Source of the DNA: Bacteroidales bacterium
GTDB taxonomy: Bacteria > Bacteroidota > Bacteroidia > Bacteroidales > P3
Direction of reading: 5' to 3'
Length of the DNA: 27,891 nucleotides
NCBI GenBank assembly: GCA_016281475.1
Contig: JAEEIS010000197.1
Location: 1-27,891, forward strand
Shown piece by piece: positions 2,524 to 26,999 of the stretch (positions are counted from its first letter, which is position 1; every line of letters begins with the position of its first letter). Made by a program: the position numbers and the translations under genes. The notes below the pieces were generated by a model that saw nothing but the letters and a program-made list of their open reading frames with translations, was not told the origin of the DNA and did no database searches.

Positions 2524-3864
2524 ATGAACATCATCATTGCGGGCGACGGAGAGGTAGGTTTCTACCTCGCAAAATCGCTGACTGAGCTGAACCACAACAT
2601 CACCGTTGTCGACCCCAACTCCGAGCTGCTCAAGCGGTTGGAGAAGGACACCGACCTCCTCACCATTGCCGGCTCCTCCACCTCGCCACAGGTGCTGGCG
2701 GATGCCAATGTGGGCGACTGCGACCTCTTTCTTGCCGTGCTGCACGACGAGAGCATCAACCTCATCAGCTGCGTCCTCGCCAAGAAACTGAAGGCCAAAA
2801 AGACCGTGGCCCGCATCACCAATGCCGAACTTTTGCTGCCCAAACATCGCGACATGTTCCGCGACCTGGGGGTCGACGAGATGGTCTGCCCCGAGCGCAT
2901 CGCCGCCAAGGAAATCACCAACCTGCTCAACAACTCGGTCGCTACCGAATTCTTCGACTTCTCCGGCGGCCTGCTCACCATGTACGTGATTCACCTCGAG
3001 GCCGACTCCCCCGTCATCAACCACAGCGTGCAGGAGTTGGTGCAGACCTACACCTCCCTCCAGGTGCGCATCGTCGCCATTCTCCGCAACGGCATGACCA
3101 TCATCCCCCATGCCGACACCGTCTTCCAACAGGGCGACCTCGCCTACCTTATCAGCCGCCCCAACCAGCTCGACACCATCAAGCAGGTGTCGGGCAAACA
3201 CGACGTGTCCATCAACAAGGCCATGATTGTAGGTGCCGGGCGTGTGGGCCGCTATGCCGCCATGACACTCGAAGACAACATACGCATCACCCTCTTCGAG
3301 GAGTCACGCCCCCGCTGCGAGGAAGCCGCCAACCTGCTCAACAACACCCTCATCATCAACGGCGATGCCACCGACATCGAGCTGCTGAAAGAAGAGGGTC
3401 TGCAGAATACCGATGCCTTTATCGCCGTCACCGACTCGTCCGAGACCAACGTGCTCACCTGCCTCCATGCCAAGAAACTGGGCGTGAAGCGCACTATCGC
3501 GCTGGTCGAAAACACCGGATTCATCAGTCTTTCGCAGGACATCGGCATCGACACCATCATCAACAAAAAGCTCATCACCGCCAGCTACATCTCGCGCTTC
3601 ATCGTCAAGGGCGACGCTGTCCGCAGCAAATGGCTCAGCGGCACCAACGCCGAGCTCATCGAGTTCAGCGTCGGCAAATGGGCTCCCGCCACCCGCCACA
3701 CCATCCGCGAGCTCAACCTGCCCCACGGTGCCACCATCGGCGGCATCATCCGTGGCAACGAGACCATCCTCCCCACCCGCGAAACACAAATCAAGGCCAA
3801 GGACAAGGTGGTCGTCTTCGCCCTCCCCATCGTGATGGAGCAAGTAGCCAAACTCTTCGAATAG
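2524..3864 (+). CDS. trkA: Trk potassium uptake regulatory subunit TrkA
   Basis: This 446-aa cytoplasmic protein is the NAD(H)-binding gating ring of a Trk-type K+ transporter. It shows two tandem RCK units. The first Rossmann motif, AGDGEVG, lies at residues 6-12 with the acidic cofactor residue D30, followed by a TrkA-C-like domain. The second Rossmann motif, VGAGRVG, lies at 236-242 with E-E near 255-260, followed by a second TrkA-C domain ending at the C-terminus. Length fits full-size two-RCK TrkA (about 450 aa) rather than single-RCK KtrA. The ATG is preceded by an A-rich stretch and a Bacteroidota -7 box. The first trkH begins 24 nt after the stop, so transporter and regulator are probably cotranscribed. 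Confidence 0.95.
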   Translation: MNIIIAGDGEVGFYLAKSLTELNHNITVVDPNSELLKRLEKDTDLLTIAGSSTSPQVLADANVGDCDLFLAVLHDESINLISCVLAKKLKAKKTVARITNAELLLPKHRDMFRDLGVDEMVCPERIAAKEITNLLNNSVATEFFDFSGGLLTMYVIHLEADSPVINHSVQELVQTYTSLQVRIVAILRNGMTIIPHADTVFQQGDLAYLISRPNQLDTIKQVSGKHDVSINKAMIVGAGRVGRYAAMTLEDNIRITLFEESRPRCEEAANLLNNTLIINGDATDIELLKEEGLQNTDAFIAVTDSSETNVLTCLHAKKLGVKRTIALVENTGFISLSQDIGIDTIINKKLITASYISRFIVKGDAVRSKWLSGTNAELIEFSVGKWAPATRHTIRELNLPHGATIGGIIRGNETILPTRETQIKAKDKVVVFALPIVMEQVAKLFE

Positions 3865-3888
3865 CACACTTTAACCCAACTCCTCCCT

Positions 3889-5409
3889 TTGTCCGCACAA
3901 TACCACAAACTGCACCTCACCGAGCTCAACCCCTATCAGCAGTTGGGCCTGCGTCAGTTCAACTTCCGACTGATTGCGCGGCTCACTGGCATGATGCTCA
4001 TCTACATGGCCATGAGCATGGCGCTCCCCCTGGCCGTGTCGATCTACACCCGCGACGGTGCCCAGTTTGCCCTTGCCTTCTCTGCCCTCATCATCATGAC
4101 GCTGGGCCTCTTCCTGCGCAACTTCGTTGGCCGCAAGGTCGACTATGGACTCAAGGAGAACGAGAGCTACTGGGTGACGCTTATCGTCTGGCTCGTCATC
4201 CCCTTCTGCGGCACCCTCCCCTACCTCTTCACCGGCGGCCTGGCCTCGTTCACCGATGCCGTCTTCGAGTCCTTCAGCGGCTTCACCACCACGGGCTCCT
4301 CAGTTGTTCCCAAGCCCGAGGAACTGCCCGAAGGGCTGCTGGTCTACCGCGCCTTCACCCAATGGATTGGCGGACTGGGGCTAATGCTCTTCGTGGTGGC
4401 CATCCTGCGCAAGCTCACCAACGGTGCCAGCCAGCTCTACGAAGCCGAATTCTCCGGCACCCAACAGCGCAAGCTCCACCCCCGCCTCGCCCGCAGCGTC
4501 ACCCGCATGTGGGCCATCTACTCCCTCATCACCCTCGTCATGATTGTCGGCCTGCTCCTCTGCCACACCCCCGTGGTCGATGCCCTCTGCCTGGCTTTCA
4601 GCACCGTCTCCACCGGCGGCTTCGTCACCCACACCAGCGGCCTCTCCATCCTCAGCAGCGGCGGGCTTGCGGTAGTCAGCCTGTTCATGTTCCTCAGCGG
4701 TGTCAACGTCGCCATCCTCTACCGCTTCTTTACCCTGCACTGGCGCGACATCGGCCGCGACGAGGAGCTGCGCGCCTATCTTGCCATCTTCTTCTTCTCC
4801 CTCTTCCTCTGCGCACTCGCCTTCCACACCGTCGGCAACGACTGGCTCATCTCCATCCACTACAGCTTCTTCCACATCGCCTCCACCATGTCCACCACCG
4901 GCTTCTTCATCCCCAAGCCCACACACTGGTCGTTCCTCGTCAGCGCCATCACCTTCGTGCTCATCATCGCGGGAGCCTCGGCAGGCTCCACCGGCGGCGG
5001 CATCAAGCTGCGGCGCATCATCATACTGCTCAAATACGTAGGCAACTACTTCACCCGCATGCTCCACCCCAACGCCGTCTTCCGCGTCAAGGTCAACGGC
5101 AAACCCGTCGAGAGCGACTACATCAACAAAATATTCGCCTTCGTGTTCCTCTACATCGCCTTCATCGTAGGCGGAGCCTTCGTGCTCACCCTCTGCGGCT
5201 GCACCATCCCCGACGCCATCTGCATGGCCGCCGCCAACATCAGCAACCTCGGCCCCTCGCCACTGATCAATAACCTCGGCGGCGACCTCGACTACACCCT
5301 CCTCCCCCGCCTTGCCAAATGGACCCTCACCCTGCTCATGCTCGCCGGCCGCCTCGAGCTCTTTGCCATCATTGCCATCGTCTCGCCCGCCTACTGGCGC
5401 CGAGGCTAA
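3889..5409 (+). CDS. trkH: Trk potassium transporter membrane subunit TrkH (copy 1)
   Basis: The 506-aa integral membrane protein belongs to the TrkH/KtrB superfamily of four M1-P-M2 repeats. The filter loops are visible in order: TTTG (residues 133-136), STGG (241-244), STTG (335-338) and NLGP (453-456). Each keeps the selectivity-filter glycine. The loop GSTGGGIKLRR (367-376) is the conserved intramembrane segment. The longest reading uses a TTG start. The first ATG (3991) would fall inside the first membrane helix and remove family-like residues (FNFRLIARLTG), so TTG is preferred. It lies 24 nt after trkA and should form the K+ pathway gated by it. A second, divergent trkH follows. Confidence 0.92.
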   Translation: MSAQYHKLHLTELNPYQQLGLRQFNFRLIARLTGMMLIYMAMSMALPLAVSIYTRDGAQFALAFSALIIMTLGLFLRNFVGRKVDYGLKENESYWVTLIVWLVIPFCGTLPYLFTGGLASFTDAVFESFSGFTTTGSSVVPKPEELPEGLLVYRAFTQWIGGLGLMLFVVAILRKLTNGASQLYEAEFSGTQQRKLHPRLARSVTRMWAIYSLITLVMIVGLLLCHTPVVDALCLAFSTVSTGGFVTHTSGLSILSSGGLAVVSLFMFLSGVNVAILYRFFTLHWRDIGRDEELRAYLAIFFFSLFLCALAFHTVGNDWLISIHYSFFHIASTMSTTGFFIPKPTHWSFLVSAITFVLIIAGASAGSTGGGIKLRRIIILLKYVGNYFTRMLHPNAVFRVKVNGKPVESDYINKIFAFVFLYIAFIVGGAFVLTLCGCTIPDAICMAAANISNLGPSPLINNLGGDLDYTLLPRLAKWTLTLLMLAGRLELFAIIAIVSPAYWRRG

Positions 5410-5411
5410 TT

Positions 5412-5451
5412 CAGAAGTAAAAAGTAAGAACTAGGAACTAAGAAGTAAGAA
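5412..5451. repeat. AAGTAAGAACTA-type direct repeats between the trkH genes
   Basis: The spacer has near-identical words: AGAAGTAA, AAGTAAGAACTA, GGAACTAA and AGAAGTAAGAA. They sit immediately after the first trkH stop. No ATG, GTG or TTG occurs in any forward frame between about 5412 and 5522. Confidence 0.55.
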
Positions 5452-5522
5452 CCCCTAACCCCAACACCCCCAAAGCCACGCAAAACCTACGCTACATACT
5501 CCGTTTCCTCGGCATCCTGCTG

Positions 5523-6929
5523 ATGGTCGAAGGCTCGCTGATACTCAACTGCCTCATTCCGGCATTCCACTTCGCCGACGGCACCGCCTCGCCCATCATG
5601 GCATCGGGCCTCTTCACCTTCAACGTCGGACTGCTGCTGCTCGTCCGCTTCCGCCGTGCCAAACGGCCCTCCGACCGCCGCGCGTCGTACCTCGTCGTAG
5701 TCGCCATGTGGATAGTGCTGCCGCTCTTCGGTACCCTCCCTTTCCTCTCCACCGGCGTGCTGCACTCCTTCGCCGATGCCCTCTTCGAGTCCACCTCCGG
5801 CATCACCTCTACCGGCGCCACCGTCTTCTCCGCCGTCGAGTGGCTGCCCTCCTCCATCCTACTGTGGCGCAGCATGACACAGTGGTTCGGCGGCTTCGGC
5901 ATCGTGCTCCTGGTCCTCGCGCTCGTGCCCTCCATGGGCATCAACAAATACAGCCTCTACACCGCCGAGGCATCGGGCGCGGACAACACCGGCAAGCAAA
6001 CCACCACCATGACCTCCACCGTGCAGCAGACCCTCGGCATCTACCTCATGCTCACCATCGCCTTCGTCTTCGCACTGTGGAAAAGCGGCATGCACGTGTG
6101 GGACGCCGTCAACGTCACCTTCACCAACATCTCCTCCGGCGGCTTCTCCATCTACAACAACAGCCTCGAACGCCTCACCAACGGCCAGCAATACATCGTC
6201 GCCCTCGCCATGCTCTTCAGCGGCATCAACTTCGCCCTGCTCTACAACTTCTTCACCTTCCACTGGGACCGCCTCCACAACAAGCTGGAACAAATCTCCT
6301 TCTACCTCATCGTCTACCTCGTTGCCGCCATCTTCGTCACCCTCGCCCTGCATTTCAACATGGGCTTCGACTGGGGCAACTCGCTCCGCTGCGGCATCGT
6401 GCAGACCATCAGCGTCCTCACCACCACCGGCTCCCTTGCCGCCGACACCCAGCAGTGGTGGGTGCCCATCACCTACCTCTTCGTCGTCCTCTCCCTCTGC
6501 GGCGGCATGGCAGGCTCCACCACCGGCGGACTCAAGGCCATGCGCGTCCTCATCCTCATCCGCAACGTGCGCAAGATACTGCGCGACCGTCTCCACCCCC
6601 GCGCCATCAACCCCGTGCGCCTCAACCACAAGCCCGTCGCCGCCGACATCATCACCAACGTCATGGTCATCTTCCTCGTCTACGCCATCGTCATCTTCCT
6701 CGGCATCCTGATGCTGATGCTCAGCGGCATCAACGCCACCGAGTCGATAGGCGCAGTCATCGCCTGCATCACCGGCTACGGTCCCGGCCTAGGCCTCAGC
6801 GGCGGCTTCGGATGCTATGCCGGCTTCACCCTCGCCGCCAAACTCATCTGCTCCTTCCTCATGGTTCTCGGCCGCCTCGAGTGCCTCACCGTCATCATCC
6901 TCTTCATCCCCGCCTTCTGGCGCAAATAG
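5523..6929 (+). CDS. Second TrkH-type potassium transporter subunit (copy 2)
   Basis: From the first ATG this is a 468-aa TrkH/KtrB-superfamily membrane protein, and a divergent paralogue of the neighbour. Filter segments are TSTG (95-98), SSGG (204-207), TTTG (300-303) and GYGP (418-421), so all four glycines persist while flanking residues differ from copy 1. GSTTGGLKAMR (331-341) is the intramembrane loop. The frame stays open upstream of the ATG to 5442 and encodes QNLRYILRFLGILL, the usual start of TrkH helix 1. That stretch contains no ATG, GTG or TTG. An ACG at 5478 is the best-placed alternative start. The true N-terminus is therefore uncertain by about 15 residues. It is probably cotranscribed with trkA and trkH. 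Confidence 0.88.
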   Translation: MVEGSLILNCLIPAFHFADGTASPIMASGLFTFNVGLLLLVRFRRAKRPSDRRASYLVVVAMWIVLPLFGTLPFLSTGVLHSFADALFESTSGITSTGATVFSAVEWLPSSILLWRSMTQWFGGFGIVLLVLALVPSMGINKYSLYTAEASGADNTGKQTTTMTSTVQQTLGIYLMLTIAFVFALWKSGMHVWDAVNVTFTNISSGGFSIYNNSLERLTNGQQYIVALAMLFSGINFALLYNFFTFHWDRLHNKLEQISFYLIVYLVAAIFVTLALHFNMGFDWGNSLRCGIVQTISVLTTTGSLAADTQQWWVPITYLFVVLSLCGGMAGSTTGGLKAMRVLILIRNVRKILRDRLHPRAINPVRLNHKPVAADIITNVMVIFLVYAIVIFLGILMLMLSGINATESIGAVIACITGYGPGLGLSGGFGCYAGFTLAAKLICSFLMVLGRLECLTVIILFIPAFWRK

Positions 6930-6950
6930 ACCCCTCCCTTAATCAAAAAT

Positions 6951-7105
6951 TTCTCTCCCTTACCGATTTCTACCGTTTCTTACGGTTCCCTACCGCATTG
7001 TACCGATTTCTACTAATGATAAGACTCTTTAAGGCTCATATAGCGATAAAGGAGCTGACAAGAAGACTTGAAAACTCGGCGGTTGTCGGGAGCCTCGTAG
7101 GATTC
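6951..7105 (+). repeat. 10-bp-periodic intergenic repeat element, copy 1
   Basis: Five consecutive 10-nt units of the form TACCGNTTYC run from 6961 to 7010, with a sixth degenerate unit beginning TACT at 7011. A pyrimidine-rich lead (CTCTCCC) precedes them. The 3' part runs through GTCGGGAG (7085-7092). The same architecture occurs in the other orientation at 26825-26980, with the same unit order and the same 74-nt distance from TACT to GTCGGGAG. It occupies most of the 262-nt spacer between trkH copy 2 and ftsE, ending about 60 bp before the ftsE -7 box. Confidence 0.75.
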
Positions 7106-7163: not shown

Positions 7164-7171
7164 TACTTTTG
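7164..7171 (+). promoter_or_regulatory. -7 box for ftsE-like gene
   Basis: TACTTTTG followed by CA matches TAnnTTTG. A partial -33 (CCTG, 7141-7144) stands at the right 19-nt spacing. The leader to the ATG is only about 15-20 nt. Confidence 0.6.
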
Positions 7172-7191
7172 CAATTTGAAATATTGTATCT

Positions 7192-25302: not shown

Positions 25303-25383
25303 TTGAGAGTTGGAAATTTAAAGTTGAAAATTATCTGGACGCGCATCCAACTTTCAACTCTCAACTTTCAACTCTCAACTTTT
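25303..25383. repeat. TTGAGAGTTG hairpin with 14-bp tandem repeats
   Basis: TTGAGAGTTG (25303-25312) is complementary to CAACTCTCAA at 25355-25364 and again at 25369-25378. The right arm is two exact 14-bp repeats of AACTTTCAACTCTC (25349-25362 and 25363-25376). It separates tRNA-Gln from lysS on the minus strand. It may be a terminator or processing hairpin for the tRNA, and two alternative folds are possible because the right arm is duplicated. Confidence 0.65.
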
Positions 25384-26824: not shown

Positions 26825-26980
26825 ATCCGTACAGCCTGACTCCCGACTTACTTCAACCTATTGCCACCCAATTGAAGGTCCTTCTTCGCCATAGGAGCGA
26901 TAAAGGGTCCTGCTATCAGTAAAAATCGGTAGAAATCGGTAGGAAGGCGTAAGAAGCGGTAGGAATCGGTACGGGAGGGA
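26825..26980 (-). repeat. 10-bp-periodic intergenic repeat element, copy 2
   Basis: Read on the minus strand: a pyrimidine lead TCCCTCCC (26980-26973), then five 10-nt units from 26971 to 26922 (TACCGATTCC, TACCGCTTCT, TACGCCTTCC, TACCGATTTC, TACCGATTTT) and a sixth beginning TACT at 26921. GTCGGGAG follows at 26847-26840. Unit order, including the odd TACG third unit, and the 74-nt spacing both match copy 1 at 6951-7105. It lies about 110 bp upstream of the leftward promoter at 26718. Confidence 0.75.
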
Positions 26981-26999
26981 AAAAAAAGAATATAGCCGG

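Follow-up and report, generated by a model that had tools for sequence, protein, structure and literature searches.

We describe a family of short repeats in which about half of the copies studied abut an opposite-strand promoter of the sigma-ABfr type at one exact distance, 20 nt. The family is limited to one lineage, a small clade of Bacteroidales, with one large expansion in one member. A promoter lock of this exactness suggests a portable control site and not neutral junk, and the explanation we prefer, to which we give about even confidence and which is drawn from phase and register, is that this modular repeat acts as a portable promoter-control module, its array serving as an operator with several binding sites. 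Two copies lie in the stretch of DNA analyzed here (the window), 27,891 nt of contig JAEEIS010000197.1 from a Bacteroidales bacterium (GCA_016281475.1).

Both window copies consist of TACCG-headed units with an exact 10-nt period and a tail terminating in GTCGGGAG (Table 1), confirming the repeat reported in the initial annotation, with element bounds that shift slightly from those first given. A five-unit pattern with up to three mismatches had three matches in the window (two of them overlapping), all in the two arrays, against an expectation of 0.00 from 100 dinucleotide shuffles. Tandem Repeats Finder at a minimum score of 30 listed copy 2 (period 10, score 54) and did not list copy 1. Ungapped identity between the copies is 89/132 over the element and 45/54 over the array plus TACT; the initial annotation gave about 47 of 60 identical bases over six units by hand count. 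The tails alone align at 61% (shuffle mean 46%, maximum 52%), and the start-to-start distance from TACT to GTCGGGAG is 74 nt in each copy, as had been noted. The proposal of one ancestral element behind both copies is upheld. The atypical TACG unit is indeed third in both, but this is no rule of the family because TACGG units take other ranks in the relative G001. The weak hairpins of the window copies are not significant alone by the shuffle test. Elsewhere in the window, a TrkA-type gene and then a tandem pair of TrkH-type genes occupy 2524-6929, a perfect 14-nt tandem of CAACTTTCAACTCT, 7-nt based, stands at 25348-25382, and further 7-nt based arrays begin at 2327, 5413, and 12471.

Table 1. 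Positions of repeat features and of the ftsE promoter box in the window
Feature	Position	Strand	Remark
Copy 1, whole element	about 6950-7092	+	
Copy 1 pyrimidine edge TTTCTCTCCCT	6950..6960	+	5' of array, as in other copies
Copy 1 array, five 10-nt units	6961..7010	+	unit starts 6961, 6971, 6981, 6991, 7001
Copy 1 degenerate sixth unit	from 7011	+	head TACT
Copy 1 weak hairpin	7025..7053	+	at the family hairpin's place; 24/60 shuffles as good
Copy 1 tail	7011..7092	+	ends in GTCGGGAG at 7085-7092
ftsE -7 box TACTTTTGC	7164..7172	+	retained in relatives without array
Copy 2, whole element	about 26987-26840	-	
Copy 2 T-tract and pyrimidine edge	26972..26987	-	5' of array
Copy 2 array, five 10-nt units	26922..26971	-	units from 26971 down to 26922
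Copy 2 degenerate sixth unit	from 26921	-	head TACT
Copy 2 weak hairpin	26879..26907	-	at the family hairpin's place; 6/60 shuffles as good
Copy 2 tail	26840..26921	-	ends in GTCGGGAG at 26847-26840

The second TrkH protein of the window is 92% identical to that of G479, 89% to G404, 87% to G469, and 86% to G001, which places the window in the group of these four genomes. When 190 genomes of the family of G001, an uncultured Bacteroidales bin of 2.4 Mb, were scanned with TACCGNNTNNTACCGNNTNNTACCG allowing one mismatch, G001 gave 406 matches (253 + 153), G479 26 (16 + 10), and G469 six (2 + 4); G418, G486, G489, G404, and G189 had one each and 182 genomes none, with the reversed control pattern at 0 or 1 per genome and strand. 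The two window copies therefore belong to a small repeat family, as had been suspected. A looser pattern (up to two mismatches) across 393 genomes of the order returned 301 matches in G001 and at most eight in any other, and the 192 genomes with at least one match were at a level like that of the control. G001 alone stood out among 59 genomes of the genus.

An exact-pattern scan of genome contigs found 10 loci, one in G001 and the others in Flavobacterium, Blautia, an Alphaproteobacteria bin, Caballeronia, and, five times, a single Lentisphaerae bin. Allowing two mismatches gave 52 matches in the Lentisphaerae bin and three to seven in each of the other four. The Lentisphaerae bin, SIG92 (G003; L003, L005, L008, L012), carries a separate dispersed repeat in which 3-10 called units of 10-nt TACCGTTTGT form an array, with opposite-sense CGG-bearing repeats ahead of it; the theme is similar in another phylum, a likeness that need not mean kinship. 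Among viral contigs, two loci were found by one pattern and five by another. The two loci (L001 8850-9070 and L002 1-240) are of another kind, with iteron-like direct and inverted repeats of GTACCGATTT and GTACCGAAA, and the five are TACCG arrays with no family tail by eye in the approximately 270 nt viewed of each. Copy 1 had no match in the annotated phage collection, and no description of such an element was found by title and abstract start in the open PMC subset.

The anatomy of the family is clearest in G001, sampled as 47 stretches totaling 751 kb with 46 called arrays; these stretches were picked mostly for known matches, so the per-copy shares are not genome averages. A typical copy, roughly 150 bases in size, has nine 10-bp units, each made of TACCG and a 5-nt word, and behind them GGGG, then a hairpin, then CGG repeats of 11 nt. 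Exactly nine units are present in 26 of the 46 arrays, the numbers found being 4, 6, 7, 8, 9, 10, 11, 13, 14, and 17. TACCACAT opens 11 arrays, eight of them called at nine units and three at eight plus a degenerate ninth (by eye). The 5-nt words come from a limited set, including CATCT (69), CATTC (65), CATTT (49), AAACT (34), ATTCT (28), and ATTCC (20), with ATTGG (24) mostly in the last unit, and their order varies between copies. Phase is strict, as had been claimed: successive TACCG words in the 751 kb lie 10 nt apart 299 times, 20 nt apart 27 times, 9 nt twice, and 11 nt never, and the control word GCCAT occurs 10 nt apart once. The GGGG-hairpin-CGG tail is lacking in a few G001 copies, for example the first copies of L139, L140, and L148. 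The hairpin was better than all 60 shuffles in 42 of the 57 copies long enough to score, many of these being near-identical G001 copies; its sequence varies among subfamilies and species and the pairs are kept. When nine whole elements were folded as RNA, each strand in turn, the structures were stable but did not agree with one another. A motif scan meant to find tail pieces remote from any array proved too loose, its 171 matches including the reverse strand of known copies and coding DNA. None of the 60 copies lies within a called gene (simple gene caller; 84% of the sequence coding).

At both window loci an array is present in the same intergenic region of G001 (L125, between trkH and ftsE, and L124 for copy 2). 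The short left flanks at trkH-ftsE are weakly similar, with only 7 of 2000 shuffles aligning as well, so the insertion there is probably common to the window and G001; the flanks of copy 2 and L124 are not alignable up to the array. The tails tell a different story from position. Copy 1 and L125 tails are 45.5% alike (null mean 44.7) and copy 2 and L124 tails 45.3% (null mean 45.0), whereas four G001 tails compared with one another are 81-93% alike. Across genomes, the copy 1 tail and the G469 tail L172 score 54.5 (shuffle maximum 53.8), and the G479 tail L166 is 60-65% alike to G001 tails. A tail is thus closer to others in its own genome than to its partner at the corresponding locus, the pattern of concerted evolution or repeated replacement.

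The central observation concerns the 5' side of the array. We collected 60 arrays (46 from G001, eight from G479, three from G469, one from G486, and the two window copies), of which 59 had sufficient sequence on the 5' side; no array was called in the G404 stretch or in one G469 stretch. The sigma-ABfr promoter has TTTG at -33 and TANNTTTG at -7, according to the part of PMC7366714 available to us. With GCAAANNTA as the strict -7 box and distance counted as the nucleotides between the TA of the box and the first unit, 27 of 59 copies (21 in G001, four in G479, two in G469) have an opposite-strand -7 box (TANNTTTGC) at exactly 20 nt, two have one at 30 nt, and none has one at 19 or 21 nt, against a background density of 1.6e-4 boxes per bp and strand. 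At this distance the first array unit takes the -33 position. Non-locked copies, with both window copies among the boxless ones, have a background score at 20 nt.

A whole-genome scan of G001, G479, G469, and G404 (GCAAANNTA, gap of 5-34, two intact units, double matches merged by hand), which misses locked copies whose first or second unit deviates from TACCG, found 35 loci, the gap being 20 nt in 32 of them, 30 nt in two, and 21 nt in one. By genome these are 26 at 20 nt and one at 30 in G001, three at 20 and one at 30 in G479, three at 20 and one at 21 in G469, and none in G404; the reversed-pattern control gave 0. Nine of the loci lie beyond the stretches analyzed earlier, and eight of these are at 20 nt (seven of seven in G001, one in G469), the ninth being the G469 locus at 21 nt. 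The 30-nt cases, L149 (G001:C55) and L165 (G479:C47), are orthologous and count as one event; their six-unit array and promoter region are unchanged by eye between two species whose downstream proteins are 90% identical.

Generic G001 promoters, represented by 135 TANNTTTGC boxes that precede an ORF, favor T, T, T/C at positions -23 to -21 counted from the box, where a locked array places GTA. Lock-specific conservation mostly stops about nine positions past the array, the farther spacer being generic but for a few positions. A run of A5/T5 is found in the spacer of 16 of 27 locked copies and 82 of 135 generic promoters, and the lock is independent of this tract because it holds also where the tract is missing. 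The commonest locked box is TACTTTTGC, the commonest generic one TATCTTTGC. A second TANNTTTG box occurs within 75 nt downstream in eight of 27 locked copies, so that the main promoter may be other than the locked one, and at L163, before an arginine deiminase gene, a further gene-proximal promoter is shared with G469, which is array-less there. The locked promoter may therefore be supplementary in some genes.

The orientation of the lock is opposite to that proposed in the initial annotation, where the element was to precede a promoter in its own orientation. Among 20 trkH-ftsE regions of relatives (those of 30 loci where ftsE was found), an array is present only in that of G001 (by eye), and the ftsE promoter region is recognizable by eye in most of the array-less ones; the ftsE -7 box is judged independent of the element because array-less relatives keep it. 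At this position in G404 (L088) a different pyrimidine-rich repeat of the CACCTCC type takes the place of the array (by eye). A same-strand box within 400 nt beyond the tail is present in 21 of 60 copies, and its distance scatters between 102 and 361 nt. The orphan RNA proposed downstream of copy 2 has no Rfam family at gathering score, and the window yields no known structured RNA at that score beyond two tRNAs. The earlier interpretation thus stands for ancestry, family, and phase and falls for the own-orientation promoter. Random placement relative to promoters, which it had named as the mark of a neutral repeat, describes about half of the copies studied, the association with an opposite-strand promoter at exactly 20 nt holding in the other half or so.

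As a multi-site operator, the array would be read by a putative DNA-binding protein that recognizes CGGTA once per helical turn. The first CGGTA site would replace the -33 box and further sites would stack upstream on the same face, the 20-nt register being kept because other spacings would break the putative contact between this protein and RNA polymerase. Where the array end lacks a promoter, as in both window copies, the copy would serve as a carrier or a decoy or would be a remnant. The operator reading thus applies to the family and not to these two copies. It is supported by the exact 10-nt phase, the box at exactly 20 nt in sampled copies and scan loci alike, the GTA placed over generic T, T, T/C positions, the persistence of the lock in spacers without an A-tract, the unchanged L149/L165 pair, and the restriction to sequence outside called genes. 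It is weakened by the boxless half of the copies, the second downstream boxes, the single locus at 21 nt, and a lineage-limited expansion with in-genome homogenization that fits a selfish repeat equally.

The neighboring genes weaken it further. An ORF was found beside 24 of 29 locked copies by the rule used and for five none, and 19 of the 24 were scanned (L127, the first copies of L131 and L148, L154, and L165 were left out). Eight of the 19 were assigned to a family (AhpC-TSA/redoxin, Lyase_1 with a fumarase C end, HD_4, LemA, galactokinase, arginine deiminase, YitT, and glyoxalase) and 11 to none; none of the 19 is a DNA-binding protein. These genes show no common theme, and no coherent regulon was seen. 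The gene on the lock side runs away from the array in 23 of the 28 locked copies that have a called gene there, as the lock predicts, and does not in five. Neither a binding protein for the array nor a mobilizing enzyme for the element was found in this analysis.

The main rival, which we hold possible though short of favored, is a mobile repeat without regulatory function, the lock being a product of the insertion mechanism: either a putative enzyme would insert it at the -33 edge of promoters, or a -7 box would be part of the element's own end, with a spacer that has since diverged. Lineage-limited expansion, mixed target genes, and the second boxes downstream of locked copies all agree with this, as do copies that adjoin plain A/T tracts, and the end of lock-specific conservation about nine nucleotides past the array would put the edge of the element inside the promoter spacer. 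A carried box is harder to reconcile with spacers and beyond-box sequences that differ between copies with near-identical tails, which implies that the element was copied without its box and flank. The Y1 transposase (PF01797), looked for as the mark of a RAYT, is absent from G001, G469, and G404, which are bins and perhaps incomplete, G001 being in many contigs; G479 has two PF01797 matches. Neither terminal inverted repeats nor a target-site duplication was evident by eye, the partner regions of several G001 copies in G479 and G469 being too diverged to define an insertion point.

A role at the RNA level, whether in loading Rho at a pause or in forming the 3' end of an mRNA, is unlikely. On the TACCG strand about 90 nt of G-poor, C-containing, largely unstructured sequence is followed by a hairpin, and this composition and the kept hairpin would suit such a role, as would six non-locked copies that lie between same-direction genes in the array's own direction, with copy 1 directly behind trkH. 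Against this, recognition of RNA calls for no strict 10-nt phase and no constant distance of 20 nt from a promoter on the other strand; the array strand of a locked copy points away from the start of the adjacent gene, and 0 of 29 locked copies lie between same-direction genes in the array's direction.

Dispersal of the operator of MraZ itself through the genome is improbable to a still greater degree. Other Bacteroidales (G208, G356, G226) have AAAAGTGGTA three times at 10 bp before mraZ, and the first unit reads GTGGTA on the other strand in 11 G001 copies, but the mraZ promoters of G404, G507, G418, G468, and G463 have 10-bp-spaced TGG boxes and not CGGTA. The mraZ start was readable at 10 of 20 loci, those of G001, G479, and G469 not among them. 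Three copies of TACCACTTTT directly upstream of an apparent mraZ at L047, L048, and L053 (G208, G293, G226) are probably the MraZ operator of those Bacteroidales; three copies at L076 1500 (G435) stand beside a tRNA-like sequence and a -7 box and not mraZ (by eye). Finally, a gene fragment coding for a repeat peptide can be set aside almost entirely since, although some ORFs from a mechanical listing run through the arrays, each added 10-nt unit changes the reading frame, unit numbers vary from 4 to 17, and all 60 copies are outside called genes in sequence that is mostly coding.

With many copies, all those studied intergenic and under about 200 bp, the family is a dispersed modular intergenic repeat. 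The tandem module of BOX elements is about 45 nt, longer than the 10-nt unit here and without helical phase, and we know of no base-exact promoter register for BOX. Insertion of Correia elements can create or affect promoters, and their terminal inverted repeats carry promoter parts; unlike these, the family has its box beyond the edge of conservation and showed no clear terminal inverted repeat. In the Escherichia coli MraZ operator the boxes are spaced at 10 bp. Like the family, BOX of Streptococcus pneumoniae is a short interspersed modular repeat with variable tandem central units, a predicted stem-loop, and a possible effect on neighboring genes, and the Correia elements of Neisseria are miniature repeats, as far as the excerpt of PMC3049150 goes. 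The GTAG/CGTC palindromic REP sequences share high copy number, intergenic position, and a short hairpin with families differing in the stem, and differ in having 20-40 bp units and no 10-bp array in the portion of PMC3733652 consulted. MraZ operators, as outlined in part of PMC8475190, also set tandem boxes beside a promoter; 10-bp tandem boxes next to a promoter were found here in locked copies only, and the core differs from the TGG boxes of the family's own readable mraZ promoters. The TAACTGA repeats of Beggiatoaceae and some Bacteroidetes likewise form many intergenic short direct-repeat arrays beside genes without a functional theme, but have a 7-nt unit, lie mostly just upstream of start codons, and were given a proposed RNA-level role in the section of PMC4679880 available.

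The lock bears on what occupies -33 in Bacteroidales promoters, a position at which one study found no box in another Bacteroidetes member, as told in the part of PMC7366714 at hand. At dozens of sites members of this family are in register with the promoter core to the exact base. Small dispersed bacterial repeats are usually taken for neutral sequence or RNA hairpins. In its fullest form, a mobile operator, the repeat would have brought phased sites, mostly nine, to the -33 position of some thirty promoters, belonging to diverse genes of a single genome, with exact register kept and copies homogenized; we regard this as a real possibility that falls short of even. If true, a spreading repeat would have wired many genes to a single regulator within one lineage. 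The family thus offers a testable case: either a repeat has rewired regulation as it spread or, should the lock derive from insertion, a novel integration mechanism reads promoters.
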